Shown here piece after piece: positions 30,108-52,500 of a DNA stretch of 54,227 nucleotides. Below the pieces are notes generated by a model. That model worked only from the letters and a program-made list of their open reading frames with translations, was not told the origin of the DNA and did not search any database. Source of the DNA: Accumulibacter sp. (GTDB taxonomy: Bacteria > Pseudomonadota > Gammaproteobacteria > Burkholderiales > Rhodocyclaceae); assembly GCF_023806635.1 (NCBI RefSeq), contig NZ_JAMTDQ010000105.1, positions 1 to 54,227 of the forward strand, given 5' to 3'. A program made the position numbers and the translations under genes. How positions within the stretch are numbered: the first letter of the stretch is position 1; every line of letters begins with the position of its first letter.

Positions 30108-30134
30108 GGTGTCTTCCGGTGGTTCGCGCGGCGA

Positions 30135-33231: not shown

Positions 33232-33246
33232 GGTCGGCGACTCCGG

Positions 33247-34134: not shown

Positions 34135-34227
34135 AGATGCTGTACTCGAGACCCGCGGGTGAAACCGAGGGGATGGTGGAAGCCGACGAAGGGGTCGAGT
34201 CCCGATCCGTGGAGGGCGAGAAAGGCT
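34135..34227 (-). pseudogene. Decayed second cas2-cas1 fragment
   Basis: Bases 34135-34150 (AGATGCTGTACTCGAG) are identical to 36901-36916 inside the intact cas2. Bases 34181-34227 match 37355-37401 inside intact cas1 at 45 of 47 positions and encode GSGLDPFVGFHHPLGF on the minus strand (cas1 has GSGLDPFVGFYHTLDF). The order and strand of the two pieces equal those of the intact genes, but the space between them has shrunk from about 450 to 46 bp. This is a remnant of another adaptation module. Confidence 0.75.
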
Positions 34228-34234
34228 CCGAGGC

Positions 34235-35011
34235 ATGCTCGTGCGAGCGAGCGTCGCCGCTTGGGCTGGGGGACACGTGCCATCCTGCAGATTGTCAATT
34301 CTCATCGACCTGGCAGGCTACTATCCCATCGTCGCCATTACCGGACCGCGTCACTCCGGCAAGACCACGCTCGCCCGTGCGACATTTCCGGACAAGCCCT
34401 ACGCCAGCCTGGAAGACCCCGACGTGCGCGCGCTCGCCGCCACCGACCCGCGCGGCTTTTATCCACCGCTGCACGACCGCGCCATCCCACCGCACGTCTG
34501 GTTTTCCGACTACCTCGCCACCTATGTCGAACGCGACCTGCGCAGTCTGTTGCAGGTGCGCGAGCGTGACCACTTTCACCGCTTCGTGCTCATGTGCGCC
34601 GCGCGCAGCGGCCAGCTGCTCAACCTCTCCGCGCTTGCCGCCGACTGCGGCATCACGCATAACACCGCACATGCCTGGATCGGCGTGCTGGAAGCGAGCT
34701 ACATCGCGACCCGGCTCACACCCTTTCATCGCAATCTCGGCAAGCGTCTGACCAGGACGCCAAGACTCTACCTCCTCGACCCGGGTCTCGCCGCCTGGCT
34801 GGCGGGTGTGCGCGGCGCCCCGGAACTGGCGGTCGGCAGCCTGCTCGGGCCGCTCTTCGAAACCTGGGTGGTGAGCGAATTCCTCAAGCGTCGCCGCAAC
34901 GGGCTGCACCCGGAGGAGCTTCACTTCTGGCGCGATGACGCCGAATTCGAGTTCCGCCAGGTTGATCGCCAAGAGCAGCAAGTCGCCTCCGGGCAGCGCT
35001 TCGATCAGTGA
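34235..35011 (+). pseudogene. AAA_14/DUF4143 ATPase with internal deletion
   Basis: The frame encodes 258 residues. It contains the start of an AAA_14 ATPase (LAGYYPIVAITGPRHSGKTTLARATF = Walker A, YASLEDPDVRALAATDPRGF), and then jumps directly to PPHVWFSDYLATYVERDLRSLL, which normally lies about 80-90 residues further on. Walker B (LDEIQ) and the sensor region are therefore missing. The DUF4143 C-terminal part is present (LGPLFETWVVSEFLKRR, LHFWRDDAEFEF), but the nuclease-like end is cut off. It cannot hydrolyse ATP normally, so it is probably dead. The N-terminal 16 residues before SCRLSILI are not part of the family. Confidence 0.8.
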
Positions 35012-35201
35012 CGAACAGACCGTTCTTGAAGAGCCCATACTTCATCGAAACCGGTATCCCGCAGATGACGGGCACGGCCGGACGGAAGCGTGTGCCGGCA
35101 GACTGTTCAGGGTGGGGCAGGGCACACAAGCATTATTGCGCTCATGTTGTCAAGATGCTATGTTCCTGGACGTATAGATGCTTAAGCGGTGAGGCAGAAA
35201 C

Positions 35202-35474
35202 ATGTCCAACGAAGAAACTACCCGGCTGACCGTCACGTTCTCTCGCGAGACTGACATGGCATTGCGCGCCTTCCTTGGTGCCCAAGGGATGCGCAAGGGT
35301 GATCTGTCGAAGTTCATCGAGGACGCCGTTCGCTGGCGGATGCTCGACCAGGCGGTTCAGGGTGTGAAAGCCCGCAACGCCGATGTCGATGTCGGCGACC
35401 TGCAGGCGGCGATCGACGAGGCCTGTGCGGCCGTGCGCAACGAAATGTGGCCGACCGCGCCAAAGGCGTCGTAG
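35202..35474 (+). CDS. RHH-type antitoxin
   Basis: A 90-residue protein with a ribbon-helix-helix-like N-terminal half (RLTVTFSRETDMALRAFLGAQGMRKGDLSKFIEDAVRWRML) and a C-terminal acidic/alanine-rich arm (DVDVGDLQAAIDEACAAVRNEM) that should bind the toxin. The ATG at 35202 follows GAGG. It precedes the PIN gene by 5 bp on the same strand. The pair forms a VapBC-like toxin-antitoxin system and should autoregulate from the preceding 190 bp. Confidence 0.82.
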   Translation: MSNEETTRLTVTFSRETDMALRAFLGAQGMRKGDLSKFIEDAVRWRMLDQAVQGVKARNADVDVGDLQAAIDEACAAVRNEMWPTAPKAS

Positions 35475-35479
35475 TTGGG

Positions 35480-35902
35480 ATGCGTTTCATCCTTGACACC
35501 AACATTCTGGTTGCAGCGCTGATCACGCGAGGAACACCCCCGGACCAGCTTTATGAGGCGTGGCGCGACGGGCGCTTCGCGCTCATCACATCTGAACTGC
35601 AAGTCGAGGAAATCCGCCGCGTCACTCGCCGCGAAGGCATCCGCTTCCGCATTCACCCGGCCGAGGCGGGGCGACTGGTCAACGATCTCCGGCGATTGGC
35701 GACCGTCGTGGGCAACCTGCCGACAGTGGACGTCTCTCCTGACCCCTACGACAACTTCCTGTTGGCGATGGCGCAATCCGCGCAGGCCGACATCCTCGTT
35801 ACAGGCGACAAGCGCGACCTGCTTGCGCTCGGCCGTCACCAGGGAATACGCATCCTGACAGCGCGCGGCGCTCTTGATCTGCTGCGGGCATCAAGCCTAT
35901 GA
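35480..35902 (+). CDS. PIN-domain toxin (COG1569-like)
   Basis: A 140-residue PIN ribonuclease starting MRFILDTNILVAALITRGTPPDQLYEAWRDGRF. The acid residues are Asp in LDTNIL, Glu in SELQVEEIRRV, Asp in SPDPYDNFLLAMA and Asp in ILVTGDKRDLLAL. It is of the single-domain type related to COG1569. It is immediately downstream of an RHH antitoxin. The start at 35480 gives the conserved LDTN position near residue 6; a longer frame would add 11 residues. Confidence 0.85.
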   Translation: MRFILDTNILVAALITRGTPPDQLYEAWRDGRFALITSELQVEEIRRVTRREGIRFRIHPAEAGRLVNDLRRLATVVGNLPTVDVSPDPYDNFLLAMAQSAQADILVTGDKRDLLALGRHQGIRILTARGALDLLRASSL

Positions 35903-35920
35903 CGCGCTCCGTTATCACAA

Positions 35921-36049
35921 GAGCAACTCTTGCCGATCCACCCGCCCAAACCAGGCCTGGGGTCGCTGCGCGACTTTCTGGCCAGCCAGCCGTTGCAGAC
36001 GATCCCCAGTGAAGCCCTGCTCGCCGAAGACCGGGAAGATCGCTGTTGA
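35921..36049 (+). pseudogene. Antitoxin C-terminal remnant
   Basis: This frame reads EQLLPIHPPKPGLGSLRDFL and continues to ALLAEDREDRC and a stop. The last part resembles the C-terminal arm of prevent-host-death-type antitoxins, which end in L..DRD.R. The DNA-binding N-terminal half is missing. Its TGA overlaps the TTG start of the following PIN remnant (TTGA), as in an intact operon. Confidence 0.55.
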
Positions 36050-36317
36050 CCGCTCATATCGATACCAGCGCCCTGGCGAAATGCCATGTGCGCGAGCCCT
36101 GGTCGCTGCAGGTTGTCGACTGGGCTGATCTTCAGTGGGCACCGGCAACCGCAGCCCTGACGCCGGTCGAATTCCGCTGCCTGCTGGACAGATCGATGCC
36201 GCGCTCGAACAGCGCGCACTGGCCGATTTCGACGGGCATGTGCACGGCGGCGCCCGGCAGATTCAGTCGGTTGCCCTGAACGACCATGCCGCGGCGCGTG
36301 CCCTGGTCGACTCACTT
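36046..36317 (+). pseudogene. vapC: PIN toxin, internally deleted and frameshifted
   Basis: The first part reads MTAHIDTSALAKCHVREPWS and continues to TALTPVEFRCLL, typical of a PIN toxin, although the motif usually has ALAKWYL. The frame then shifts near 36185-36190, and the next frame continues with QIDAALEQRALADFDGHVHGGARQIQSVALND to ALVDSL. About 8-10 residues are lost at the joint and the C-terminal active-site half is absent. The gene is dead. It lies beside an intact toxin pair and near the decayed cas fragment, so the region has been repeatedly rearranged. Confidence 0.65.
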
Positions 36318-36396
36318 TGCAGGGGCGTCGATAGCCAGGCAAACGGTCATGATTTGTCCAGGCACCCCGATCATGGAAGTCATGACCGTTTCGCTC

Positions 36397-36430
36397 TCCC
36401 CCTTCCCCTCCCTCGCGAGGGGAAGGGGGA
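36397..36430. repeat. Perfect 14-bp inverted repeat
   Basis: TCCCCCTTCCCCTC (36397-36410) and its exact complement GAGGGGAAGGGGGA (36417-36430) enclose a 6-base loop. This C/G-rich hairpin type occurs as a dispersed intergenic repeat in many Proteobacteria. The remaining sequence from 36318 to 36715 contains no recognised gene. Confidence 0.7.
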
Positions 36431-36715
36431 GGTTCGTGAGTTGCATACGCGACTTTCAGACTGGAGGCCTTTCGACGACGCGCGGCCGCGCCTGGTGTCC
36501 GCTGCCGGATCCAGGCACTCGCGGCGCTGACCGACCGCGACAGGATAGCGCATGTCGCCCGGGTTGGCCGGCAAGCGGCCCTGGGGTCGGCCCTTGCGTG
36601 CGGCGCCATCCGGTTGCCCCGGGTCGCGGGGGATGGCCTTCGGGGCGGCGGGACGTTCGCCTTGCCGCCGGCTGCGGCGCGCTCCGGCCATGTTCGCCGC
36701 CACAGCCGGGACCGC

Positions 36716-37012
36716 TCACGCGATCGCCGCCGGCAGCCCCGTCCAGACGATCCCTTCAGGCAGGCTCGCGCGGCCGATACGGCCCTGGAAGCCGCGCGCC
36801 GGCAGCGCGTAGCAGCGGACGTCGTCCTCCTGCGGCGCGATCAGCGACTCGATCTCGAGCAGGCAGCGCTTCTTGTCGTTCTCGCTGCCGATCAAGAGGA
36901 AGATGCTGTACTCGAGCGGCGTCGCGTGCTTGCACATCTCGCGATGCACGCGCAGCAATCGCCGTGGGTCGCTGATGTCGTAGCCGATGACGAAGGCGAG
37001 TTCAGAAGCCAT
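36716..37012 (-). CDS. cas2: CRISPR-associated Cas2 (distal copy)
   Basis: A 98-residue ferredoxin-fold protein. It shows the early Asp in VIGYDISDPRRLLRVHREM and the LEYSIFLLIGSENDKKRCLLEIESLIAP segment of the family. It pairs with Cas1 to insert new spacers. Its start overlaps the cas1 end by 11 bp. Its sequence is quite different from the second Cas2 upstream of cas1, so the two are not a recent duplication. It is the last gene of the CRISPR operon. Confidence 0.88.
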   Translation of the reverse strand: MASELAFVIGYDISDPRRLLRVHREMCKHATPLEYSIFLLIGSENDKKRCLLEIESLIAPQEDDVRCYALPARGFQGRIGRASLPEGIVWTGLPAAIA

Positions 37013-38021
37013 CGCCGTCGCCGGCCGGCGCAGCGGTTGCCGCAGGCGGGTGCGCCCCGCTGCTGGCGACCGCGGTCGTCGCGCCAGCCGCCGCCTCGCC
37101 GATCGCCGCCGTCACATCGCTGACGCTCTCCGCCAGCAGTTTGCGCAGGCGCGCCGCGAGCGCCTCCCATTCGCCGTAGAAGCGTGCCCTGCCAGCCTTG
37201 CCGAGCAGGCAGCCGGCATCGCTGTGGGTGAAGTCCTCGGGCCGCAGCTTTTCTGAGCGAAACAGCATCAGTGCATGCTGGTCGATCTCGACGCGCAGCG
37301 GCTCGACCAGATCGCAAGCCAGCGATTCGCGTGCGAAGTCGAGCGTGTGGTAAAAGCCGACGAAGGGGTCGAGTCCCGATCCGTAGAGGGCGAGAACGGC
37401 TTCCGCGTGCAGCAGCGTGTAGCCGAGAGAGAGGACTGCGTTGACCGGGTCGCGCGGCGGCCGCCGGTTACGGCCGCTGAAGTGCAGCCGCTCGGGGAGG
37501 AGGTCGGCGAAACCCTCGAAGTAAGCCGCTGCCCCGGCGCCTTCGAGTCCGCGCAGCGATCCGATCGTCGCCTGCTGGTCGACGGCCGCGATGCTGCTGG
37601 TCAGGCGCTTCAGCGAAAGGGTCAGCAGGTAGCGCGAGCGCGGCTCGCTATCCCGGCGTTCCCCGAGGAAAGCTGCCTGCGCCCGCAGTTTCGCTTCGAC
37701 GATGGCACGCGCGAAACGCAGGCAGAAGTGAGCATCGAGGGACAGGCGATACTGTGCCACTCGCCGGGCGGCATCGTTGTGCGGGCGCCCCAGAAGCATC
37801 GTCGGCACAGCCTTACGCCCGGAGAGGACCACCACTCCAATGCCCCGTTCGCCGAGCTTGCCGAGGAGCGACGACGATACCGTCACGTCGCCACGAAGGA
37901 AGACGCGCGACAGCGGCGCCAGTGGCACCGTGCCGACACGCTCGCCGTTTTCGTAGAAGACGAGTGCCTCGCCATCGGCTTTCAGCGTCACTCCGCGCCG
38001 GTCTACATACAGGCTTGACAT
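37002..38021 (-). CDS. cas1: CRISPR integrase Cas1
   Basis: A 339-residue Cas1. The active-site residues are present: Glu160 in SLRGLEGAGAAAYFEG, His225 in DPFVGFYHTLDF and Glu240 in CDLVEPLR. The N-terminal beta domain (LYVDRRGVTLKADGEALVFYENG) and the ARFYGEWEALAARL end of the catalytic domain are normal. An alanine/threonine-rich tail of about 35 residues after SVSDVTAA is unusual. There is no reverse-transcriptase or Cas6 fusion. It lies between two cas2 genes, 17 bp from the upstream one. Confidence 0.95.
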   Translation of the reverse strand: MSSLYVDRRGVTLKADGEALVFYENGERVGTVPLAPLSRVFLRGDVTVSSSLLGKLGERGIGVVVLSGRKAVPTMLLGRPHNDAARRVAQYRLSLDAHFCLRFARAIVEAKLRAQAAFLGERRDSEPRSRYLLTLSLKRLTSSIAAVDQQATIGSLRGLEGAGAAAYFEGFADLLPERLHFSGRNRRPPRDPVNAVLSLGYTLLHAEAVLALYGSGLDPFVGFYHTLDFARESLACDLVEPLRVEIDQHALMLFRSEKLRPEDFTHSDAGCLLGKAGRARFYGEWEALAARLRKLLAESVSDVTAAIGEAAAGATTAVASSGAHPPAATAAPAGDGDGF

Positions 38022-38037
38022 CGCTTCGTTCCCTCGC

Positions 38038-38325
38038 TCAGACGATCAGGATGCAGTCGGTGACCGGTTCGGTCGCGAGACCAAGCAGGTCGCGCTGCAT
38101 GCGCGGATCAAGCTGGAAGATATGGGCCCGGTCCTCCGCCAGGTCGAGCAGGTTCGCCAGCGTCGCCCGCACCTCGCGCAACTCCGCAGCGGTCAGCCAG
38201 CACTCGAAGAACGACTTCTGACCACCCACCTTGTAGCCCGTCAGGTACTTCTGCACGCGCCGGCGCAGGGCCGAGTCGCAGACGTCGTAGCAGACCAGGT
38301 AGAGGGTTCGCGCCGCATCGCTCAT
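38038..38325 (-). CDS. cas2: CRISPR-associated Cas2 (proximal copy)
   Basis: A 95-residue Cas2 of the common type: LYLVCYDVCDSALRRRVQKYLTGYKVGGQKSFFECWLTAAELREV with the conserved Asp near the first strand, and HIFQLDPRMQRDLLGLAT at the end. The start ATG gives MSDAARTLYL; longer frames add no conserved sequence. It precedes cas1, and a gap of about 280 bp separates it from csx16. Confidence 0.9.
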   Translation of the reverse strand: MSDAARTLYLVCYDVCDSALRRRVQKYLTGYKVGGQKSFFECWLTAAELREVRATLANLLDLAEDRAHIFQLDPRMQRDLLGLATEPVTDCILIV

Positions 38326-38606
38326 GGCGCCACGATATTCGCCGCAGCCGCGGCTGTCCGCTGCCGCAAGCTTGCCGGCAGGGGCACCGGTGCAACGCGG
38401 CACCTGCGCGCGCCCGCCTGATGATCGGTGGTCAGCCGATGGCGTTCAGGGTCGGCACGCCGACGCACCGTTTGCGGGCGGCGCGCGACGCCGCGGCGAC
38501 CATGGCCGCGCGGCTGGCATCGTCACGGGCAGGCTTCGCACCTCGGCTCCGTGCGCCGGCAGCGCGGTGGGCCAGACGCGTGCCGGTGGCGTGCCGCGGC
38601 TGCCGT

Positions 38607-38918
38607 TCAGGACGGACCCTGCGGGCGGCCCGGTTTCGCGACGATGTATTCTTCCAGCCGCGCGCCGTAGCGCTCGAGGTCGTCGGCCGACAGTTCCTGT
38701 CCCCGTGCCTCGGGCGGTGCATCCAGCGAAAGGTTGAAGAAACGCCCCCCGCGCGCGCAGACCTCGGCCGCCAGGTTGACCGGCAGGGTGCCGATGACGA
38801 CATCACCGGGGTGGATGTTGGCCGGGTCGAGGTGGGCGATCTGCCGGCCGACGTTCAGGCCGCGGCGGGCCGCCCAGACGACGGCACCGGGGTGGCGGGT
38901 GATGAAGAGGGTGGTCAT
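38607..38918 (-). CDS. csx16: CRISPR-associated Csx16
   Basis: A 103-residue protein of the VVA1548/Csx16 family. The signature is LFITRHPGAVVWAARRGLNVGRQIAHLDPANIHPGDVVIGTLPVNLAAEVCARGGRFFNLSLDAPPEARGQELS. Csx16 is found with type III systems; as far as I know it has recently been proposed to handle cyclic oligoadenylates (ring-nuclease-like), and this should be checked. It lies 15 bp after cmr6. Its presence beside a GGDD-containing Cmr2 suggests a cOA signalling branch. Confidence 0.88.
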   Translation of the reverse strand: MTTLFITRHPGAVVWAARRGLNVGRQIAHLDPANIHPGDVVIGTLPVNLAAEVCARGGRFFNLSLDAPPEARGQELSADDLERYGARLEEYIVAKPGRPQGPS

Positions 38919-38933: not shown

Positions 38934-40208
38934 TCAGCCGCTCTCGGCACGGACGAGGACGCTTCCCGAGACATGGGCCGTCACCTTGCAGAACTGGTTG
39001 CCCTCGACCTTTCTGCGAAGCTCACTGGGCAGGCTGGCCAGCAGCGCCTTGCCCTTTTCGCCGTGCGCATGGGCCGCCTTGCCGTCCTTCTCGGCGCTGA
39101 GCGTGCCATTCCGCTGGTTGTACTTCAGCCGGGCGCCTGACCAAGGAACGGTTTCGGCCTCTCCGATCGAGTCCTGGTCCCCTTCCGGGCGCGGCTCCGC
39201 CGGAGGACGCCGGGCCTGGCGCATGGCTTCGCTCGCCATCGCACCGTATCCGACCGCCGTCTTGGCGCCGAAGCCCAGCCAGGCAAAGGCATGCTCGAAG
39301 GCTTTGGTCATCAGCTCGTGCCAGCGCGGCTTGCCGCTGTCCGGGTCGGCTGCCGTCAGTTGCGGGGCCATCTGCTGCAGATGCGACTGGTCGCAGGTGA
39401 CGAAGAAGGTGAAGGTGGAACCGGGCGGCACGGTCAGGAAGCTGATCGGGGTGGGCTGCCCGGAGTCGTGGGGAGTGGTGCTGTCGCCGGTTCTGCGATC
39501 GCGCTTCTGCTGATAGTAGTGCGACTGGTGTGGGGTCATGATCTCGACCATCAGACTGTCGCCCTTGATCTGCGGGATGACGTCCCAGAAGGCGAGCGCG
39601 CCGCGCACGTGCTCGCTGTCGCCGTCGCCGGACTCCAGGCCGAACAGGGCGTCGAGCAGGGAAAGCCGGATGCGCTGCTTGCCGGCGTTGAGGACGAAGG
39701 TCTGGTCTTCACTCCACCCGTGCGGCTCTCCCCATTCGCCGGAAGCCAGTTCCCGCGCCGCCTGGCGCAGGACGCCCTTGACGCCGGAGCCCGGCAGGTA
39801 GGGCAGGCCGTAGGGGCTGAGAAAGGCGAAGCCGTTTTCCAGCGGGTGCTCGTTGCCCAGGCCGGTGGTGAACGGTGCCTGTGCGAAGGCGTCGAGGCGC
39901 AGCAGGCTGGCGGCGGGAAGCGTTGCGGCGACGAGCGACTGGCGGGTGGCCAGTGCGGTCATGGCCTGTCGGTCGCGCTGCCGCAAGCCCCTGGCCTCCG
40001 CCAGGGCGGCGACCTTGTTCTCCTTCGGGACTTCACGCTCCTCGCGGTTCTGCCCCCGGACTTCGTAGTCGAGGTCCTGAGTGGACCAGAGTGTGGCATG
40101 GGTGCGCCGGTTTATGCCCCAGAGCTTGAGATACATGCCGAAGCGCATTGCCGGCGAGGCTTCGCTGAAGTCACTGCCCAGATAGGCGGGCACAGCGGCG
40201 ATCGGCAT
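38934..40208 (-). CDS. cmr6: Type III-B RAMP protein Cmr6
   Basis: A 424-residue RAMP protein, longer than many Cmr6. The diagnostic stretch is FTTGLGNEHPLENGFAFLSPYGLPYLPGSGVKGVLRQAARELA, followed by FWDVIPQIKGDSLMVEIMTPHQSHYYQ and AFAWLGFGAKTAVGYGAM, the glycine-rich RAMP loop. It caps the 3' end of the Cmr complex with Cmr1. It follows cmr5 directly. The C-terminal 90 residues are charged and specific to this branch. Confidence 0.92.
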   Translation of the reverse strand: MPIAAVPAYLGSDFSEASPAMRFGMYLKLWGINRRTHATLWSTQDLDYEVRGQNREEREVPKENKVAALAEARGLRQRDRQAMTALATRQSLVAATLPAASLLRLDAFAQAPFTTGLGNEHPLENGFAFLSPYGLPYLPGSGVKGVLRQAARELASGEWGEPHGWSEDQTFVLNAGKQRIRLSLLDALFGLESGDGDSEHVRGALAFWDVIPQIKGDSLMVEIMTPHQSHYYQQKRDRRTGDSTTPHDSGQPTPISFLTVPPGSTFTFFVTCDQSHLQQMAPQLTAADPDSGKPRWHELMTKAFEHAFAWLGFGAKTAVGYGAMASEAMRQARRPPAEPRPEGDQDSIGEAETVPWSGARLKYNQRNGTLSAEKDGKAAHAHGEKGKALLASLPSELRRKVEGNQFCKVTAHVSGSVLVRAESG

Positions 40209-40209
40209 C

Positions 40210-41654
<1,445 letters not shown>

Positions 41655-41689
41655 TCAGGAGCGGCAGCGCGCCCATGTCCTCCCCTCAT

Positions 41690-42895
41690 TCATTTCCAGG
41701 CGGCCAGGGCGATGCGGTTGAAGCCTTCGGCGCGACGCGCGGCATCTTCGCAGGGATCGCCCCACAAGCCCTTGGCAGCAAGCTTGCGCAGGGCCGTGGT
41801 CGTCGCCTCCAGCTCATCCAGCCACCAGACGCTGCCGGCCGGGGCCGCCCGCTGGGCCGCCTTCGGCTGCCATTGCGCCAGATCCCAGCCGGAGATGACT
41901 TCGGCGCGTGGCACGGCGGCGCAGACCAGGCGGCCCCGGACACCGTACAGCTCGAAGCGGTGACTGCCGTCAGCCTGCTGCGTGCTGCCGGTCGGCAGCC
42001 AGCCACCGGTGAACAGGCCGGGGGTGGCCAGGATCATGCGGCAGCGGCCGGCGCCGGCGATGGCATCGAAGTCCGGCTCGGGCAGGGTGGCCGTCGCCGA
42101 ACGGATGGCCGCCGCGCGACCATCGCCGCCGAGGCGCACGGGGCCGTCCGCCGGTGGCGTGGCGCCGCTGATGGTGGCGAGAAAACCCACGTCGTAGTCG
42201 GCAAGAATCGCCTTCCGCGTTCCTTTTTCCGTTCCGATGCGGTGCCCGCGCTTGGTCATCGCCACCGCCTGCAGCGAGAACAGCCGTCCGTCGGCGGCGC
42301 GGCGGGTGGCCGCGTCGAGGCCGACGCCAACCCGGTGGTCGAGCGCCCACAGCTCGGAGGATCTGGCGAGATCGCTGGCGTTCGGGGTTCCACCCGCCAG
42401 GTATCTGCGCCAGCCGGCCTCGGTCAGCCACCAGCCGCCGGCCGGCTTGCTCCGCTCGGCTTCGGCCAGCACGGGCAGCAGGGGCAGGGGGGCGGAGCAC
42501 TGCAACCCCCCTGCCTGCAGGAGCGGGATTGGGGTGAGCGAGCGGATTGTCGTCGAACCAGCATCCGCTTCGCCGATGACCAGGTCGGCCGGTGGCTGAA
42601 CGAGCGCCTCCACGCTGCCGTCGGCATGGCGGCGGGCGAGGTGGAAGGCGGTGACGGCGAAATCGCCGGGCCGTTGCGGCGTACCCAGCGCCGGATGGTC
42701 GATCTCGCCGCGGGCGAAGGCCGCCAGGTCGACGCCGGCGTCCGCCAGCATGCGCGAGCGGATCGCTCCCGCCGCCACCGAGGGCCAGGGCGGCACCAGC
42801 GATTCGCCGAAGCTGCCGGGGTCGCCGAACAGCTTGTTGCCACGCAGGAAAAGCACATCCAGCGGTTCCAGGAAACGGGTCTCCACGGGTTTCAT
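41690..42895 (-). CDS. cmr3: Type III-B RAMP protein Cmr3
   Basis: A 401-residue Cmr3. It starts with the typical RFLEPLDVLFLRGNKLFGDPGSFGESLVPPWPSVAAGAIRSRML and contains SLQAVAMTKRGHRIGTEKGT and a C-terminal glycine-containing segment. It binds the 5' tag of the crRNA and contacts Cmr2. It overlaps cmr2 by ATGA. Confidence 0.93.
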   Translation of the reverse strand: MKPVETRFLEPLDVLFLRGNKLFGDPGSFGESLVPPWPSVAAGAIRSRMLADAGVDLAAFARGEIDHPALGTPQRPGDFAVTAFHLARRHADGSVEALVQPPADLVIGEADAGSTTIRSLTPIPLLQAGGLQCSAPLPLLPVLAEAERSKPAGGWWLTEAGWRRYLAGGTPNASDLARSSELWALDHRVGVGLDAATRRAADGRLFSLQAVAMTKRGHRIGTEKGTRKAILADYDVGFLATISGATPPADGPVRLGGDGRAAAIRSATATLPEPDFDAIAGAGRCRMILATPGLFTGGWLPTGSTQQADGSHRFELYGVRGRLVCAAVPRAEVISGWDLAQWQPKAAQRAAPAGSVWWLDELEATTTALRKLAAKGLWGDPCEDAARRAEGFNRIALAAWK

Positions 42896-45800
42896 GCCTC
42901 ACCTCCGGCGCGGCTTTCGCGGGCCAGGAATTCGGCCACGGTCATGAAGTTTGCCAGCCAGTTCAGGCCGTCGCCGGCTTGCTTGCCGGTCAGATCGGCC
43001 AGCCGTCTGGCCAGGCCGGGCGCCGCGGCACCGGCCGTTCCGCTTGACTGCCGGGCGAGCTGATAGGCCAGCAGGCTCTCCAGCATGTCGGTACGGCCGC
43101 CGGGATCGGGCAGCCCCTTGAGCCATTCCAGGCTGTGGTACACGGCGCGGCGGGAAGTCCCTTCGTCGCGCAGGAAGTCGATCAGTTCGTTGAGCAGCTT
43201 GAGCGGCTCGCCCCACTTGCCGGTGAGTTGCAGCGCTCCGCCGGAACGCTTGATGACGGTGACGCAGAAGGCATCCCGTCCGCCCTCGGCCTTGGCCCGC
43301 CTTTCCGCCGCCCGCAGTTCGCGCATGACAGCCGACAGCGGTGCCTGATGGTGGGCGATGACCGCGCCGCAGGAGGCGGTGGCGCGCTCGCCCATCATGC
43401 GCATGACCTGCAGGCCGCGTTTCGACCGCAGGGCGGCGAAGCCCTGATGCAGGGTCAGGCCCTCGCAGACGCCGCCTTCGTGGTCCGGGTCATGGCCGGA
43501 ATAGGCCTGGCGCAGCCGCTGCATGGCCGGCAGCAGATCGGCCACCGGCAGCATCGCCAGCACGTCGTCGCCGCCGGCGTAGATTACCCGGCCGAGGCGC
43601 TCCTCCTCCAGCACGTGGCGCGCCACGACTTGCGAGAAATCGTTGAGGGCGACGGAAATGGCCAAGTGCCGGTTGGGCGAGACGGGGCGCTTCTGCTGGC
43701 CGTAGCGGCGGATCAGGGGCTGTTTCGCGGCGTGTTCGTCGAACCCCTTGCGCACCTGCGGGTGGAAGCTCTCGCGGTAGGGGATGGCGCAACGGGTCCG
43801 GTCGTCGCCGGCGAGGATGGCGCCCATGCGGTCACCGTCCAGCATCAGAAGGGCGTAGTAGGTTTCCAGACGGATTTCCTGTTCTCCGCCCCCCTTGGGC
43901 GAGGGGCCGGCGGTGGCGGTGCCCTGCGCCAGCGTCCGCCGCACCAGCCGCTGCGCCTGTTCCTGGGCCGCGTCGTCCTCGGCGTCGCGCGCCGCTTCGA
44001 GCAGGCCGGGGATGCGCTTGGCGTCCTCCAGCGCCCGCGGGTTGGCCCGGTGGCGGCGCATCAGGCGGCGCGGCAGGGCGACGGGGTCCGTTCCGCCCGT
44101 ATCCAGCCCGCCGGCAGTCAGGCCGCCCTTTTCCAGCCACTGGTCGATCTGATGCGCCAGTGCCATGGTGTGGGTGGAGACGACGAAGCGGTCGACGCGC
44201 GCCCGCTCGCCGCGTTCCCCGGCCGCCAGCGCCTGGCCCACCTCTTCGGCGAAGATTGTCGGCCACAGGCGCTTGATGGCGGGCAGGGCGGAGAGGTGTT
44301 CACCCTTTCTGGCCCAGGCCGGCCTTTGTTCGGCGATCCGGGTCCACAGCGTTGCGGCGTGTTTCCCATCCTGGAACGCCTTGTCCTTGCGGCTCTTGCG
44401 CTGGCCTGCGGGCATCCGCAGAAGGTCGGGATCGTCCGTCAGCCATTCGGCTTCGCCGGTCATCGAGCAGCGCCAACCCCGCTGTTCGGTCGGCGCAAAG
44501 GTGCGTGTGGCCTTGGCGGCGGCCAGGACCCGCTCGGCGAGGTCATACACCGCCGGGTAGAGGACGCCGGGGTTGGGAGCGAAGAAGCTGGTGCCGTCGC
44601 CCCAGTCGATCTCCTTCTGCAGCGCCTGCCAGGCGGGGGTAGCGAGAAAGCCGCAGTCGTCTCCCGTCCGGGCGCCGAAGAACGGCGCCATGCTGGCGGA
44701 CAGGGCGCTCAGGTCCAGGTCGGTCTGCCTGGCGGCGTTCCTCGGCTGGATCAGGGAGAAGGGCACGGCCGCCCAGTGCACCTCGGGGAAGCCTGCGAGC
44801 TGCTCCGTCATCTGCGCGTAAGGCGTGGCGGTTTCGGCATCGAGCCCGGCCTCGTGCAGCAGGCGCGAAACGACGTCCGCGCCCAGCTTCTGCATCCACT
44901 CGTGCAAGGCGCTGCCAGCCATCCCGGCGATCTCCCGTGCCCGGACTGCCGGCACCACGGCCACGAAGCGGTTCGGCAGTGCCGCCGAAAACAGCGGATT
45001 GGCGTCGGTTCCGCCCTGCATCCACTCGCAGCCGGTGAATAGGGAATCGGGCAGGTCCATGGCGTCGCGCAGCCACAGATCCACCTGCGGAATGCCGCGC
45101 AGGCGGGGGAAGAGGATGGCGTCCGGCCCGAATTCTTCGCACAGCGGGCGCATGGCCTCCCAGGCCAGCCGCGAGAGCAGGTGCGACCCCGCCCAGAGAT
45201 CGTCCATCTTGCGCGCAGCGGCGATGAAGCCCTGCACCGGGCCGATCGACAGCGCCAGCAGCGCCGCCTCACCCTTCGGATCGGCCGCAAAGGCGCCGGC
45301 AAAGGCGGAGGTGAGATCCAGATGATCCCAGATCGAATGGTCGGGGATGCGGGTGTCGGCCGGCAACAGTCCCCAGAGGGCGCCCAGCTTGCCGAAGTCC
45401 TCGTCCTCGACGAGTTCCGGGCCGAAGCGCCAGAAGGTGAGCAGGGTCTTGCGCAGGTCTTCCTCGCCATCCTTGCCGCCGAGCCTGGCCAGCAGCCTGG
45501 AGAAGTGATCGAAGCTGCGTTGCTTGATGTCGTGGAAGTCGGTGTCGGAAAGCCCGCCGTGTCTGCCGAGGTCGAACTGTGTGCCGGTGAGCGGGTGGAT
45601 CAGCACTGGCTGGTTGGTCCAGCGCACCTGGGCGCCTGCGGCGACCCTGATCGTCTTCAGCTCGCCGGTTCGGGTCTCGACGGTCAGTTCCTGCATCGGC
45701 CACTGCGGCCGGTCGGCGGCGGCGGCCCACCAGTCGGCGCGCTGCACATGGCGGTAAATGGCGGACTTGAGACCTCGTTTGAAGATGACGCGCGCGAGCA

Positions 45801-45987
45801 CTTCGTCGTTGTCGGGGTCGATGGTCTCGGGCAGCGCTTCTGCACCGATGGCGAGCAGCCGGCTGAGCGCCTTCGAAGTGCCGTTCTCGTGCCCCGCCGG
45901 GTCGCGCAGCAGGACGAGGGCCTTTTCCGCCGGATCGTGCAGCCGCGCGGCGAGTTTGGCTTGCCAGAGAAAGTCGTTGCAGGTCAT
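42892..45987 (-). CDS. cmr2: Type III-B large subunit Cmr2 (Cas10)
   Basis: A 1031-residue Cas10. The N-terminal HD-like motif is AARLHDPAEKALVLL (His17-Asp18), which may or may not form an active nuclease. The two Palm domains follow; Palm2 holds the intact cyclase motif GGDD at residues 805-808 in VIYAGGDDVLAMLPV, so synthesis of cyclic oligoadenylates from ATP is likely on target RNA binding. A Cys-containing segment GWRCSMTGEAEWL marks the zinc-like region. It starts 3 bases after the cmr1 stop and overlaps cmr3 by ATGA. Confidence 0.96.
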   Translation of the reverse strand: MTCNDFLWQAKLAARLHDPAEKALVLLRDPAGHENGTSKALSRLLAIGAEALPETIDPDNDEVLARVIFKRGLKSAIYRHVQRADWWAAAADRPQWPMQELTVETRTGELKTIRVAAGAQVRWTNQPVLIHPLTGTQFDLGRHGGLSDTDFHDIKQRSFDHFSRLLARLGGKDGEEDLRKTLLTFWRFGPELVEDEDFGKLGALWGLLPADTRIPDHSIWDHLDLTSAFAGAFAADPKGEAALLALSIGPVQGFIAAARKMDDLWAGSHLLSRLAWEAMRPLCEEFGPDAILFPRLRGIPQVDLWLRDAMDLPDSLFTGCEWMQGGTDANPLFSAALPNRFVAVVPAVRAREIAGMAGSALHEWMQKLGADVVSRLLHEAGLDAETATPYAQMTEQLAGFPEVHWAAVPFSLIQPRNAARQTDLDLSALSASMAPFFGARTGDDCGFLATPAWQALQKEIDWGDGTSFFAPNPGVLYPAVYDLAERVLAAAKATRTFAPTEQRGWRCSMTGEAEWLTDDPDLLRMPAGQRKSRKDKAFQDGKHAATLWTRIAEQRPAWARKGEHLSALPAIKRLWPTIFAEEVGQALAAGERGERARVDRFVVSTHTMALAHQIDQWLEKGGLTAGGLDTGGTDPVALPRRLMRRHRANPRALEDAKRIPGLLEAARDAEDDAAQEQAQRLVRRTLAQGTATAGPSPKGGGEQEIRLETYYALLMLDGDRMGAILAGDDRTRCAIPYRESFHPQVRKGFDEHAAKQPLIRRYGQQKRPVSPNRHLAISVALNDFSQVVARHVLEEERLGRVIYAGGDDVLAMLPVADLLPAMQRLRQAYSGHDPDHEGGVCEGLTLHQGFAALRSKRGLQVMRMMGERATASCGAVIAHHQAPLSAVMRELRAAERRAKAEGGRDAFCVTVIKRSGGALQLTGKWGEPLKLLNELIDFLRDEGTSRRAVYHSLEWLKGLPDPGGRTDMLESLLAYQLARQSSGTAGAAAPGLARRLADLTGKQAGDGLNWLANFMTVAEFLARESRAGGEA

Positions 45988-45990
45988 GGC

Positions 45991-47079
45991 TTACTCCGGG
46001 ATGCGGGTGAGCTGTTGGGCCGGGGCGTCGAGGAAACGATGCACCTGGGCCCAGACGTTCTCGATGGCCCGCGGATCCGGGCGGAATGCAGCGGGCGGCA
46101 GATGCGGGACGTGGAAGATCACGCCGACCAGTCTCTGGTCGGCGGTGGCGCGCACCTTGAAACGCAGGGTGTTGGGCAGGCGGGCGTTGTTGCCCCAGGC
46201 CACCACCGAGTGGTTGGTAACGGGGTAGCTCAGCCAGTGACGAGGCTCGACCTGCCGGGCGTTCCTGCCGGTGGTGAAGGCGAACTGGGTGCGCAAGCCG
46301 ATCTTGATCTCCGCCAGCCGCCTCATCAGTGCCTTCCAGTCACTGAACGGCGGCGTCTGCCAGATCAGCGGGCGTTCGTCGCGGCCGATGGCGTGCGGCC
46401 AGTCTGTACCGAGGCAGTCTCGCCACGGGCGAAGCGGAGCCGGCGCGGCCTGCGTTGCTCCGTCGCTCCCGGTGGGAGCGGCGAGCAGGGCCAAGGATCC
46501 CCAGCCGTTGCGGCTGCGGCCGCCCAGGGTGCCATAACGATCCATCAGGCGGAGGGCATGCTGGAGACGAGGCGCGTTCGCTTCGAGCAGGCGCCGCAAC
46601 TCGGCGCCGCTGTGCGTCGTCGGGAAGGCGATGGCAAGCGTGGCTGCCTCGCCGGCCTGGATCGCGGCGTTGGCCTTGAGCGCGGTTCCCTGACGGAACA
46701 CCAGGGGACCGTAGCCGAGATAGAGCTGGGAGCCCACCGGGGTCTGGCGGCCGTCCCGGTTCTTTACCTCCGGATGGGAAACGGGCGAGTCCGGGCCTGC
46801 CCAGACGCGCAGTTGGCCCATCCTCCAGTCGCCCAGCCGCATCCGCACCAGGCTGCGCCTGCTGTTTCCATCGCCATCGCTGGCGACGCCGAACAGTTGC
46901 CCTTCCTCGCGCCGCATCGCGGCCACATCGACACGAAACCCGTGGTCCGCGGCCCACGCCACCCGCCACCACTGCCGCAGGAGCGCCTTGATCGGCGGCG
47001 TGCGCCATTGCCCCTGCTGCTCGGCGTTGCCGAGGAAGGCGGGGGTGTTGAAGCGGAGGCTGTATTCGAGCGTCTTCAT
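45991..47079 (-). CDS. cmr1: Type III-B RAMP protein Cmr1
   Basis: A 362-residue Cmr1. The N-terminal RAMP pattern is YSLRFNTPAFLGNAEQQGQWRTPPIKALLRQWWRVAWAADHG, followed by LFGVASD and the glycine-rich loop GTLGGRSRNGWGSLAL. The C-terminal domain has FTTGRNARQVEPRHWLSYPVTNHSVVAWGNNARLPNTLRFKV. Cmr1 sits at the 3' end of the complex. The ATG at 47077-47079 is the start of the conserved region; longer frames lack similarity. Confidence 0.95.
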   Translation of the reverse strand: MKTLEYSLRFNTPAFLGNAEQQGQWRTPPIKALLRQWWRVAWAADHGFRVDVAAMRREEGQLFGVASDGDGNSRRSLVRMRLGDWRMGQLRVWAGPDSPVSHPEVKNRDGRQTPVGSQLYLGYGPLVFRQGTALKANAAIQAGEAATLAIAFPTTHSGAELRRLLEANAPRLQHALRLMDRYGTLGGRSRNGWGSLALLAAPTGSDGATQAAPAPLRPWRDCLGTDWPHAIGRDERPLIWQTPPFSDWKALMRRLAEIKIGLRTQFAFTTGRNARQVEPRHWLSYPVTNHSVVAWGNNARLPNTLRFKVRATADQRLVGVIFHVPHLPPAAFRPDPRAIENVWAQVHRFLDAPAQQLTRIPE

Positions 47080-47392
47080 GGTCTGTCTCCCGTCCATATC
47101 AGCATTATGCATGAATCGGGCGTGGCCGTTCATCTTCGCAAGCTTGCTGCAGGTCCCCAGGACTGCTGCCAGGACGACACGATGTGCTGTTTGCCATTTC
47201 CGTCGCAAGCAGTGGTTGCAGCCGTTGCCGGCACCTGCATGAGCCTTTGGCAATCGCCCGCGTGGCCGCCCGGGAGCTCCGGCAGGCCGTTGAAGCGGGC
47301 GATCTTCCGGTAGAGGAAGTCACGCCGGGAGAAGGATGGCGCACGGCGCACACGCTCCGGATCTTCGATGGCGGCAAAGCTTCCTGGCGGTT
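47080..47392. other. Gap between the nuclease gene and cmr1
   Basis: These 313 bp separate the tandem-nuclease gene from cmr1 on the minus strand. A plus-strand stretch at 47240-47400 reads like protein (EPLAIARVAARELRQAVEAG), but lacks a convincing start and is probably chance or a remnant. A promoter for the cmr genes may lie here; no clear -35/-10 pair was found. Confidence 0.35.
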
Positions 47393-48526
47393 TCACGCGA
47401 CTCCGCCGACCCTGATGGACCGGCCGCTGATCAGCAGCAGCGACACACCGCCGCGTTGGCAACGTTCGTTCAGCTCGGCGTGGGCGGATTCGGGCAGGCC
47501 ACCCGGCCTGCCGTCCACGCCGAGGAAGAGCGCCAGCGGGCGCACGCCGCCGATCGCCGAGATTCTGTCACGCCAGGCTGCCAGCTTGTCGATGTCCTTG
47601 CGGTAATCGGCAAGCACAGCGTTGCTGGACTTGCGGTCGATTGCCGCACCGCCCTTGACCTCGACGATGGCTTCCAGGTGCGCCAGCTTGTGCCCATCGT
47701 TCGACCGGTGCCGGTCGCCGCCCCGGTACAGGTTGAAGCGCCCGTCGAAACCGGCGTCGAAGACGGCCAGATCCGGTCGCCGCTGCATGCGGTTGCCGGC
47801 TTCGGCGGCGAACGAGAAGTAGGTCTCGAGCGAGAGCTGGTGCACGCCGAAGCCGGCTTCGCGCAGGAAGCCGTAGAGTACGGTGGCGAGGTTGGCTTCG
47901 TGACCACCTGCGGCGAGCAGAGCCTTCGCGAGCGGACGCAGGCGCGTCTCGCCTGCGTTCAGCAGGAAGTCGATACCGGCGCGGCGCGACGTCGGTGGAA
48001 CCGGTGGAAGCGGAAAGTGTGCGAGCGGCGTGGCAGGCCCGGCAGCGAGCCAGGAGGGCTCGCCCTGGCAGTGGTAGGCGAAGTTCAACCCATGCGCGAT
48101 GCAGCGCTCGGCGATCAGCCTCGCCTTCATCGAGCCGACGGCCCGGCCAAGCTCGGGCATGTCCACACACATGAACCAACATTCCACACCTCGGGCGGCC
48201 GCGGGTTGCAGCTTGGCCATGTCGTCGCAGTGACCGCGGGCATCGATGCGATCCCGGAGCGCGTTGCGGTCGCCGTAGGCGCCGCCTTTCACTTCGATCG
48301 CGACGCGCGGCACCAGCGCCGTCTTGTCGGCGGAATGGCCGTGCGGACCCAGGACGACCAGATCCGTCTTTCCGGCTTCCAGGGGGAACTCGCGCATGAG
48401 CTGCGTCGCCGGAATGCCGGACTGGCTCAGGCGGTGGTGCACGATGGCGTGAATGACCTCTTCGTGACCGCAGAACTGTGACGCGTCGGCAAAGGACTTG
48501 GCGATGAGACCGAGATCGAGGTGCAT
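47393..48526 (-). CDS. Tandem PD-(D/E)XK-like nuclease protein, candidate effector
   Basis: A 377-residue protein with two restriction-endonuclease-like modules. In the N-terminal module, Glu46/Glu50 precede Asp55 (KTDLVVLGP) and Glu78-Val-Lys80 (VAIEVKGG). In the C-terminal module, Glu234 precedes Pro251-Asp252 (RRPDLAVFD) and Glu289-Val-Lys291 (AIVEVKGG). Both keep the D…ExK set and the GG after the lysine. I see no CARF or SAVED domain, membrane segment or signal peptide. It is the first gene on the cmr strand, 313 bp before cmr1, and the closest gene to the array. It may be an effector, a processing nuclease, or an unrelated defence nuclease that shares the locus. I do not recognise a named family. 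Confidence 0.7.
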   Translation of the reverse strand: MHLDLGLIAKSFADASQFCGHEEVIHAIVHHRLSQSGIPATQLMREFPLEAGKTDLVVLGPHGHSADKTALVPRVAIEVKGGAYGDRNALRDRIDARGHCDDMAKLQPAAARGVECWFMCVDMPELGRAVGSMKARLIAERCIAHGLNFAYHCQGEPSWLAAGPATPLAHFPLPPVPPTSRRAGIDFLLNAGETRLRPLAKALLAAGGHEANLATVLYGFLREAGFGVHQLSLETYFSFAAEAGNRMQRRPDLAVFDAGFDGRFNLYRGGDRHRSNDGHKLAHLEAIVEVKGGAAIDRKSSNAVLADYRKDIDKLAAWRDRISAIGGVRPLALFLGVDGRPGGLPESAHAELNERCQRGGVSLLLISGRSIRVGGVA

Positions 48527-48853: not shown

Positions 48854-48868
48854 CCAAGAATGGGAAAT

Positions 48869-48887
48869 CCCCCGGCTCTGCCGGGGG
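48869..48887. repeat. Left-end hairpin of the IS
   Basis: CCCCCGGC-TCT-GCCGGGGG is a perfect 8-bp stem with a 3-base loop, 15 bases inside the left boundary. The right-end stem has identical arms. Confidence 0.75.
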
Positions 48888-48970
48888 ACTGGAGAAGTTT
48901 GAGATTTCAGGGAGTCCATCAGGAAACTTCAAGCCGTGAGCCGCCAAGCACACGACTATGGAGAATCCCG

Positions 48971-49402
48971 ATGGACGAGTCTGAAAGCCTAAGCCACTCG
49001 AAGTGGGAGTGCAAATATCACGTAGTGTTCATCCCGAAGTGCCGACGGCGTACGCTGTATGAGCAGCTGCGTCGCCACCTCGGGGAAGTGTTCCGCAAAC
49101 TGGCAGAGCAGAGGGAGAGTCGGATCGAAGAGGGGCATCTGATGCAGGATCACGTACACATGCTGATTTCGATTCCCCCGAAGTACGCGGTGTCGCATGT
49201 GGTGGGGTACATCAAGGGCAAGAGCGCGATTCACTTGGCCCGAGTGTACGGTGAGCAGAAGAGAAGCTTCGTCGGCCAGAGCTTCTGGGCAAGAGGGTAC
49301 TTCGTCTCGACCGTTGGTCGAGACGAGACGTTGATCCGGGAGTACATCCGAGACCAGGAGCAGGAGGACAAGCGACTGGATCAACTGAGCCTGTGGCGCT
49401 GA
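48971..49402 (+). CDS. tnpA: IS200/IS605-family transposase TnpA
   Basis: A 143-residue HUH single-strand transposase. The HUH motif is in HLMQDHVHMLISIPP, and the catalytic Tyr is probably in REYIRDQEQED; the segment KWECKYHVVFIPKCRRRTLY at the start is typical of IS200 TnpA. Length is normal and no lesion is seen, so it may be active. The ATG at 48971 has GGAG seven bases upstream. It is transcribed opposite to the cas operon. Confidence 0.95.
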   Translation: MDESESLSHSKWECKYHVVFIPKCRRRTLYEQLRRHLGEVFRKLAEQRESRIEEGHLMQDHVHMLISIPPKYAVSHVVGYIKGKSAIHLARVYGEQKRSFVGQSFWARGYFVSTVGRDETLIREYIRDQEQEDKRLDQLSLWR

Positions 49403-49405
49403 GTT

Positions 49406-49472
49406 GCCACCTTTAGGTGGCGGAAGAGAGTCAGGGTCGCGTTAGCGACCCTGTCTAGCCGCTTTGAGCGGC
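49406..49472 (+). repeat. Three consecutive small stem-loops after tnpA
   Basis: Three perfect stems follow the tnpA stop in a row: GCCACC-TTTA-GGTGGC, GGGTCGC-GTTA-GCGACCC and GCCGC-TTTGA-GCGGC. They lie between the transposase gene and the right-end hairpin. They may terminate or protect the transcript or form a structured RNA of the element. Confidence 0.55.
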
Positions 49473-49486
49473 TCACATAATAAAAG

Positions 49487-49505
49487 CCCCCGGCTTTGCC
49501 GGGGG
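49487..49505. repeat. Right-end hairpin of the IS
   Basis: CCCCCGGC-TTT-GCCGGGGG is a perfect 8-bp stem, 8 bases inside the right boundary, matching the left-end arms exactly. Confidence 0.75.
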
Positions 49506-49513
49506 ATGGTTAC

Positions 49514-52500
49514 TCCCTTTGATTTCAGGGCTGGCTACTGACGGAGATCCAAAAGACCTAGCATACACGATAGCGTCTTAATCCCTTTGATTTCAGGGCT
49601 GGCTACTGACCGCTCGCCCGCTGTGATGCCGCGTGGGCAGCGCGCAGTCTTAATCCCTTTGATTTCAGGGCTGGCTACTGACCCCGGCAGCATGGGCAAG
49701 CTACATCACCGGGCTGAAGTCTTAATCCCTTTGATTTCAGGGCTGGCTACTGACGGAGATCCAAAAGACCTAGCATACACGATAGCGTCTTAATCCCTTT
49801 GATTTCAGGGCTGGCTACTGACGAAACCGGCGGAGACGTGTTGATCCTCGCGCCGCTGGCGCCTTAATCCCTTTGATTTCAGGGCTGGCTACTGACTTTG
49901 CGCACGCCAGAAATGGGGCGTCAAGGATAAGTCTTAATCCCTTTGATTTCAGGGCTGGCTACTGACCGCAGAGCTTCGTGCAAGGGCTTATCTACATGGG
50001 TCTTAATCCCTTTGATTTCAGGGCTGGCTACTGACGTCATGAAGGCGAACAAGGAAGTCACCGCCTTCGGGTCTTAATCCCTTTGATTTCAGGGCTGGCT
50101 ACTGACCTTTGCGGGTCCTTTTAGGAGAAAACACAATGACCAGTCTTAATCCCTTTGATTTCAGGGCTGGCTACTGACGACGCCGCAGCGTTTGGGCGTA
50201 GTTGGAAGGCGAGTCTTAATCCCTTTGATTTCAGGGCTGGCTACTGACATCTACACAACTCTCAAGGCAATCAAAGAACACTCGTCTTAATCCCTTTGAT
50301 TTCAGGGCTGGCTACTGACTAGACAGAGATGCTGCACGCGACAGCTTCATCTCGTCTTAATCCCTTTGATTTCAGGGCTGGCTACTGACGGTCGCGAATG
50401 CCGGACGGGTCCAAGGGAAGCGTCTTAATCCCTTTGATTTCAGGGCTGGCTACTGACAGGCTGTAATCGCAGGTAAGGTTACTCGCTCCCGGGTCTTAAT
50501 CCCTTTGATTTCAGGGCTGGCTACTGACGGCCGCCGAGCGCGCGGCAGGTGTGCGCGACGTTGTCTTAATCCCTTTGATTTCAGGGCTGGCTACTGACCC
50601 AGCTTTTCCCGCATCAGCGCGATCTGGCAGGTCTTAATCCCTTTGATTTCAGGGCTGGCTACTGACGTGCTGGAGTATGATTCCCCGCTTGCGAAATATC
50701 GGTCTTAATCCCTTTGATTTCAGGGCTGGCTACTGACCCAACCCTGCAGTTTATTGATGACCAGTTTGATTGTCTTAATGCCTTTGATTTCAGGGCTGGC
50801 TACTGACCCGCCAAGTACGACGGCCTCAACCCCGGCCAGAAGGTCTTAATCCCTTTGATTTCAGGGCTGGCTACTGACATCAGGACGCTGTACATCGAGC
50901 AGTTCGACGAGGTCTTAATCCCTTTGATTTCAGGGCTGGCTACTGACTACGTCGTCACGCCGACGACGTGGCAAATTCACCTGTCTTAATCCCTTTGATT
51001 TCAGGGCTGGCTACTGACCCGTTGCCCTTCCGACATTCGCCGGCGCCGGCGAGTCTTAATCCCTTTGATTTCAGGGCTGGCTACTGACGACGCCCATGCT
51101 TTTGGGCGGCAATGGCGCGCAAAGTCTTAATCCCTTTGATTTCAGGGCTGGCTACTGACGCGACAGCGTACAGCAATGCGCCTTCGCGAGCGTCTTAATC
51201 CCTTTGATTTCAGGGCTGGCTACTGACGAGATTTAACAGTATGGGAGTACGCCCCGAGTCTTAATCCCTTTGATTTCAGGGCTGGCTACTGACACATTAC
51301 CGGTCTGAAGAAGGCTCCTGCGGTTACGGTCTTAATCCCTTTGATTTCAGGGCTGGCTACTGACAATCCACGCGAGCGAACGATCAAGTTCCTTGCGAGT
51401 CTTAATCCCTTTGATTTCAGGGCTGGCTACTGACCCGGTTGAACCGGGCAAGGTCAGCGGGTCAGACGTCTTAATCCCTTTGATTTCAGGGCTGGCTACT
51501 GACGAAAACCGCCGAGCAAATCGCGCAGCAGAAAGCGTCTTAATCCCTTTGATTTCAGGGCTGGCTACTGACTTCCAACACAAAGTCACGGAACCGAAAG
51601 GCACGTCTTAATCCCTTTGATTTCAGGGCTGGCTACTGACACAAAGCTGCTGTTGCTCGCCATCTCACGGCGTGTCTTAATCCCTTTGATTTCAGGGCTG
51701 GCTACTGACCGCGAGACACGCGAGATTTGGGACAAAATCCTATTGTCTTAATCCCTTTGATTTCAGGGCTGGCTACTGACCGCGAACTGCAACCGGAGTG
51801 GAACAGGGCTTTTGGGTCTTAATCCCTTTGATTTCAGGGCTGGCTACTGACCTGTGAGCGCACCATTCACAGCGACAAAGTTTGACCGGTCTTAATCCCT
51901 TTGATTTCAGGGCTGGCTACTGACCCGAGGATGGCTCCCCGTGCATCGTGTCGGCGATGGTCTTAATCCCTTTGATTTCAGGGCTGGCTACTGACGAAAA
52001 AGCGCCGACCAGCAAGCCGGGGATCAGCACGTCTTAATCCCTTTGATTTCAGGGCTGGCTACTGACAGGAAATGATCAACCACAGCGACCTCGTTGATCG
52101 GTCTTAATCCCTTTGATTTCAGGGCTGGCTACTGACCTGGTGGCAGCGTGAGCGACGGCGTTCTGACCCGGTCTTAATCCCTTTGATTTCAGGGCTGGCT
52201 ACTGACGAAAGGAGAAAGCCGAAGGCGTACCCGCACAGCTCGTCTTAATCCCTTTGATTTCAGGGCTGGCTACTGACAGATGCCGCCATTTTGGCGGAGC
52301 AGTACAACAGTCTTAATCCCTTTGATTTCAGGGCTGGCTACTGACAGCAGCGAACTCAACCACAGCGACCTCGTTGATCGCGTCTTAATCCCTTTGATTT
52401 CAGGGCTGGCTACTGACGTACAACATGGGCGATATTGCCCGTGTAGCACCGGTCTTAATCCCTTTGATTTCAGGGCTGGCTACTGACCGCCCGAGCGGCG

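Follow-up and report, generated by a model that had tools for sequence, protein, structure and literature searches.

A tandem PD-(D/E)XK-type protein encoded next to a type III-B CRISPR locus of Accumulibacter sp. is probably a passenger of that locus

The protein encoded by the ORF at positions 47393-48526 (minus strand) of contig NZ_JAMTDQ010000105.1 of Accumulibacter sp. (GCF_023806635.1), designated here NUC, is probably a stand-alone double PD-(D/E)XK nuclease contained in a single chain, which mobile or defence islands carry as cargo and which does not belong to the type III-B system beside which it is found. Its position next to the cmr genes is most likely that of a chance neighbour. 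The window, i.e. the whole stretch of DNA analysed, comprises positions 1-54,227 of the contig. Adjacency to cmr genes often suffices for a gene to be called a CRISPR accessory; in this case, the relatives of NUC and the remnant of another gene in the gap before cmr1 indicate a passenger instead.

Motifs, family status and predicted fold of NUC

NUC was delineated from its ORF, motifs, an alignment of its relatives, hhalign and an AlphaFold2 model. The protein is 377 aa in length, and its ATG start codon is preceded by a ribosome-binding-like GGAG. The N-terminal site consists of D55/E78/K80 and the C-terminal one of D252/E289/K291, with GG following both ExK motifs; the ORF, the six residues and both GG pairs were all located exactly where the preliminary description of this DNA had placed them. 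When the residues of NUC were shuffled 20000 times, two strict sites (E-x-K-G-G with an upstream D) never arose, and at least one was present in 105 shuffles. The loose pattern [DE]xK, on the other hand, occurred at least twice in 5504 of 20000 shuffles, hence the bare motif says little and more weight is given to conservation. When the five members of the family are aligned, none of the six catalytic-type residues varies, the other members being 41-53% identical to NUC in this alignment, so that the conserved D...(D/E)xK residues characteristic of the PD-(D/E)XK superfamily are present in 5/5 members.

At E ≤ 1, NUC was matched by nothing in Pfam, NCBIfam, PADLOC or PHROGs; among PDB chains, the best sequence match had an E-value of 0.72. 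PADLOC-DB includes models of NucC, none of which matched NUC at E ≤ 1. Thus the earlier statement that the protein belongs to no named family holds for these four collections, as does, at the same threshold in Pfam, NCBIfam and PADLOC, the statement that no CARF domain is visible in it. No treatment of this family was recognised among the titles and abstract openings retrieved from the literature with terms that could miss one, and the type III effectors presented in the accessible part of PMC11229360 include no tandem nuclease. NUC probably represents a PD-(D/E)XK-type family that is tandem in architecture and as yet uncatalogued.

The N- and C-terminal halves of NUC can be aligned to one another, the D and ExK residues of one half falling on those of the other (hhalign probability 96.6, E 5e-10); the protein is thus a tandem duplication. 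The AlphaFold2 model of the whole protein has a mean pLDDT of 83 and a pTM of 0.86. In this model, the N-terminal half is composed of a helix, three strands (D55 on the second, E78xK80 on the third), a helix, a strand, a helix and a strand, and the C-terminal half follows the same order of elements, which is less clear around D252. A Foldseek search with the model gave nothing at E ≤ 0.001 in either PDB or BFVD. The weak matches included SfsA (probability 0.97), YaeQ, TT1808, the restriction enzymes Cfr10I, PaqCI and EcoT38I, and a viral MmcB-like protein, as well as acetyl-CoA carboxylase domains (the top match) and nitrilases; SfsA, YaeQ, TT1808 and the matched restriction enzymes are members of the PD-(D/E)XK superfamily. 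The N-terminal half folded alone gave a poor model (pLDDT 64), which retrieved mostly nitrilases, none at E ≤ 0.001. The structural matches are weak and mixed; the predicted PD-(D/E)XK fold is likely, yet falls short of proof by structure comparison. NUC shares with restriction- and repair-type nucleases of this superfamily the D...ExK triads and, in the model and clearly in the N-terminal half only, the order of the core secondary structure elements (αβββαβ), but differs from them in being a one-chain tandem that keeps both triads and in having no significant structure or family match. The presence of two complete triads in one chain lets specialists ask whether both domains cut.

The type III-B locus, its array and the gap upstream of cmr1

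The genes cmr1-cmr6 of the type III-B system were assigned to positions 38934-47079 (minus strand) using Pfam, NCBIfam and PADLOC, with the start of cmr1 taken at 47079. cmr1 is only weakly matched by its families (E 8e-6 for PADLOC Cmr1; Pfam RAMPs under its cut-off), but in five related loci the gene at the corresponding position encodes a product 58-63% identical to that of cmr1. By inspection, the GGDD motif is retained in Cmr2 of the window. Beside cmr6 lies csx16 (38607-38918, minus strand), a gene of a ring-nuclease family (TIGR02620, E 4.5e-30). As Csx16 is reported to be cA4-specific (PMC12409355), its presence points to cA4 signalling by this locus. Further along the same strand, at 36716-38403, cas1 (37002-38021) is flanked by two cas2-like genes (38038-38403 and 36716-37012), the second of which matches just under the curated cut-off.

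On the other side of NUC, the CRISPR array extends from position 49506 to the contig end at 54227; it contains 67 repeat copies (≤3 mismatches) and terminates in a further, degenerate copy. Close to this degenerate end, a unit of repeat and spacer is duplicated (49510-49610 versus 49722-49822, 99% over 101 nt), one spacer thus being present twice. Between NUC and the array there is an IS200/IS605-family transposase gene (48860-49402, plus strand; PF01797 E 2e-36, NF033573 E 3.5e-41). The IS200/IS605-type element, at about 48870-49505, abuts the degenerate last repeat and has a GC-rich hairpin on each side, the one at about 48870 having been recognised by eye.

With the same limit of three mismatches, the repeat recurs only once elsewhere in the genome, as the last 36 bases of another contig, C8. 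The window terminates in this repeat followed by CC, and C8, read outward, continues with the repeat and CCCGG; from these matching ends we infer the contig join, C8 very probably holding the far side of the array. A type III-A operon is present on C8 (within 24000-38815), comprising genes for two CARF-family proteins (TIGR02584, E 2e-70; TIGR02221, E 3e-67), cas10/csm1, csm2, csm3, csm4, a csm5-like gene just under the cut-off, and a gene for a cas6-like protein that had no match in NCBIfam and was recognised solely by inspection. One array appears, then, to be common to the III-B locus of the window and the III-A locus of C8. The two CARF-family proteins provide the locus with candidate cOA effectors of known type, so NUC is not needed as a gap filler. 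A third contig of this genome carries an additional Cas10-palm match (C44:113423-113806, 76 bits).

The placement of NUC between the array and cmr1, on the cmr strand, was borne out. The proposal that NUC heads the operon was not: it is separated from cmr1 by 313 nt (47080-47392) containing the truncated remnant of an unrelated gene, and the IS200-type gene lies on its array side. The remnant (47268-47381, minus strand), situated directly downstream of NUC, corresponds to the N-terminus of an M15-peptidase-like gene, with 46% identity over 37 aa in one frame (blastp E 1e-9 in a single comparison). A search of the window genome with the M15-like protein recovered the remnant site at E 0.005, plus an intact paralogue (68%) on contig C71. 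The remnant aligned with a score of 82. Across 886 further stretches of the window, the highest score was 42 with one query and 46 with the other, and for each query a score of 82 was attained by none of 500 shuffles. No clear continuation of the M15-like remnant was seen in a second frame of the gap. The remnant occupies the place of the M15-like gene in Sulfuritalea (see below), so it seems that the event which placed NUC beside cmr1 also truncated the original neighbour of NUC. The 313-nt gap was searched for terminator-like and promoter-like sites and none was detected, so that read-through from NUC into cmr1 is possible. The GC3 of NUC is 0.825, and that of the cmr genes 0.828-0.880.

Relatives of NUC and their neighbourhoods

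A single-protein search of 395 genomes of the host's own taxonomic family yielded one relative, in a Sulfuritalea MAG. Two of these genomes with matches at E 0.006-0.009 were discarded as chance, as were seven among 399 genomes of the order (E 0.003-0.01), the latter sample otherwise containing NUC in the window genome only. In both samples, the chance-level pieces were short, several had stops and the E-values were per genome. The window genome was also the only one recovered in the class sample (369 genomes) and, with a five-sequence profile, in the phylum sample (398 genomes). A first scan of genome contigs, two scans of viral contigs and one each of plasmids and phages gave zero NUC relatives. 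The genome-contig scan with a two-sequence alignment revealed four relatives among 27 candidate stretches, a count which is a lower bound because the scan relies on two short patterns. These are Thiocystis violacea (54% identity to NUC), a Pseudomonadota MAG (54%), the Sulfuritalea MAG (53%) and Litorilituus lipolyticus (41%). Each of the four homologue genomes has one copy, that of Sulfuritalea being in two pieces on two contigs, and the family looks rare.

In Thiocystis (locus L080) and in the Pseudomonadota MAG (L081), the gene after NUC, at distances of 36 and 39 nt, encodes a Sel1-repeat protein whose C-terminus is kinase-like, and the next one a receiver-like/HEPN-like (RNxxxH) protein, the labels kinase, receiver and HEPN being based on motif inspection only. 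The neighbour proteins of the two loci are 49% and 53% identical. A Tn3 transposase and IS630 pieces lie near. In Sulfuritalea, an M15-peptidase-like gene (PHROG endolysin, E 4e-6) begins 9 nt after NUC, and NUC itself is apparently split by a DDE transposase element. In Litorilituus, an M15-like gene is found 15 nt before NUC; a serine recombinase and a phage integrase are encoded close by, as is PDC-M12A/B, a candidate defence pair.

No cas genes were seen beside any of the four homologues in the DNA listed, which covered L070 to 12 kb, L071 to 9 kb, L080 as a whole (9.8 kb), L081 from 3 to 12.6 kb and L083 from 1 to 16 kb, with family searches made on selected ORFs. The Cas10 palm profile likewise gave no match at E ≤ 0.001 on the NUC-bearing contigs of the four genomes, and nothing over the cut-off anywhere in the Sulfuritalea genome. 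The profile also produced weak matches in Thiocystis and Litorilituus, which may represent diguanylate cyclases. The Pseudomonadota MAG has Cas10 genes, located on contigs other than that of NUC.

The loci related to the cmr genes were inspected as well. Relatives of the window Cmr2 are present in 12 of 199 genomes of the family, its own genome included, and NUC is encoded by none of the other 11 (nine of them at least 90% complete); as a positive control, the same query detects all four homologue genomes. Twelve loci were fetched from these 11 genomes, two of them from G767; the one of G943, which begins inside cmr2, was left out, and in the remaining 11 the DNA preceding cmr1 was inspected over 2 to 10 kb. 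In seven of these (G433, both of G767, G832, G778, G814 and G938) a CARF protein of the NE0113 family is encoded upstream of cmr1, and G433 has in addition a Can2-like gene just upstream of cmr1, whose product matches Can2 (E 5e-33) and Card1. In G387, G874, G939 and G785 no CARF protein was recognised upstream of cmr1. DNA alignment of the region upstream of cmr1 in four loci revealed no usable conservation.

The Sel1-repeat/kinase-like and receiver-like RNxxxH HEPN-like proteins (L080:1862-6033, L081:9177-12448) form a conserved pair. Pfam recognises in it only Sel1 and other repeats, PADLOC gives a weak PtuA match on the repeat region of the Sel1/kinase-like protein, and NCBIfam finds only repeat-type matches below the cut-off in the Sel1 protein of L080 and none in its receiver-like neighbour. 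The pair is possibly an unnamed two-component defence system, and its link with NUC offers a testable lead to a system left unnamed by the Pfam and PADLOC searches.

Alternative readings and proposed mode of action

NUC might be an accessory of the type III system, either activated by the cyclic oligoadenylate of Cmr2/Csm1 or acting together with Cmr on target DNA or RNA or on crRNA. This reading draws on the same-strand position of the gene 313 nt upstream of cmr with a gap free of terminator-like sites, on the GGDD motif seen in Cmr2 by inspection and on the cA4 signalling implied by csx16 (PMC12409355); moreover, no CARF protein is present among the window proteins tested, and the slot before cmr1 is the one that has a CARF protein in 7 of the 11 readable related loci. 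Can1, Can2 and Card1, which combine a CARF domain with a PD-(D/E)XK nuclease, resemble NUC in this type of motif and in length (~380 aa), and the Can2-like gene of G433 sits in the very slot just upstream of cmr1. In contrast to these effectors, NUC consists of two nuclease-like halves, its N-terminal half being homologous to its own C-terminal half and not a CARF domain, and its homologues have no cas genes nearby, the window copy being alone among the five known in lying at a type III locus. No sequence relation was found either: profile A2 retrieves no Can or Card chain, whereas the Can2-like protein of the related locus, used as a control, matches Can2/Card1 at E 5e-33 to 4e-14, and a relative of Can2/Card1 with a hidden CARF domain was ruled out on this basis. 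The neighbourhoods of the four homologues, the lack of NUC in the 11 other cmr2-bearing genomes, the M15-like remnant between NUC and cmr1 and the supply of two CARF-family proteins from the far side of the array all speak against an accessory role, which was rejected on these grounds and is judged quite unlikely. Equally hard to credit is the variant in which mobile defence islands use this small family of single-chain double nucleases as an exchangeable effector, paired with an M15-like protein in some islands and with the Sel1-kinase and receiver-HEPN proteins in others, the window copy having been recruited beside the composite III-A/III-B locus to complement signalling or target cleavage without CARF. 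Of the three options offered in the preliminary description, the type III accessory and the crRNA- or target-processing enzyme thus found no support, as all four homologues lie away from CRISPR genes in the DNA read, with no Cas10 match on their contigs; the unrelated nuclease with two catalytic modules is the option supported.

Two further readings deserve somewhat more weight, though each is still improbable. In one, NUC would serve the Sel1 kinase-like and receiver-HEPN-like proteins, as nuclease effector or as accessory, in a defence system of the two-component type, and would be an orphan in the window, given that it stands first in a three-gene run in two of the five members, with short gaps and conserved neighbours. 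A precedent is Detocs, described in PMC11249213 as a three-gene two-component phage defence system; the two NUC members resemble it in adjoining kinase-like and receiver-like genes, as judged by motif inspection, but differ from it in that the extra gene encodes a separate nuclease and the receiver-like protein has a HEPN-like motif. The pair was not, however, seen beside the other three members, including that of the window, where an M15-like gene or remnant is found instead, and its kinase, receiver and HEPN assignments come from motif inspection, Pfam giving repeats and PADLOC a weak PtuA match. A comparably low probability is attached to NUC of the window being a stranded, functionless gene in early decay after a rearrangement had broken its M15-like partner. 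The truncation of that partner, the apparent splitting of the Sulfuritalea copy by an insertion sequence and the IS200 element just upstream of NUC agree with decay; the full-length frame, the intact catalytic-type residues and the GGAG before the ATG do not.

The reading of NUC as a stand-alone double nuclease and island cargo is the one we favour. Besides the weak and mixed structural matches, further observations count against it. The gene has remained intact, with a GC3 close to the cmr values, so it may be kept for use beside cmr; the Pseudomonadota MAG does have Cas10 genes, albeit on other contigs; and only five members of the family are known, with three of the four homologue contigs being only 11-64 kb. 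According to the favoured reading, the cmr locus would have come to lie beside NUC through the rearrangement that cut the M15-like gene. NUC would act as an intramolecular pseudo-dimer, each domain of which may cut one DNA strand using Mg2+, so that a single polypeptide could introduce a double-strand break into foreign DNA. Metal dependence is a property of the PD-(D/E)XK superfamily and is expected of NUC by virtue of its putative membership. The M15-like protein on the one hand, and the kinase-like and receiver-HEPN-like proteins on the other, might represent alternative co-travelling or regulating modules.

Members of the M15-peptidase-like family were encountered at L070:2016-2642, L083:7335-7985 and C71:39889-40497 of the window genome, as well as in 11 plasmid records. 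In the six of these records that were viewed, the plasmid contexts vary; one, from Nostoc, includes a NACHT protein, and another, from Pseudomonas, includes dynamin and restriction genes. Elsewhere in the window, a PIN-domain-like ORF preceded by a small antitoxin-like one was noted by eye at 35202-35902 (plus strand), and a tandem glycine riboswitch is located at 31733-31925, upstream of glycine cleavage genes.
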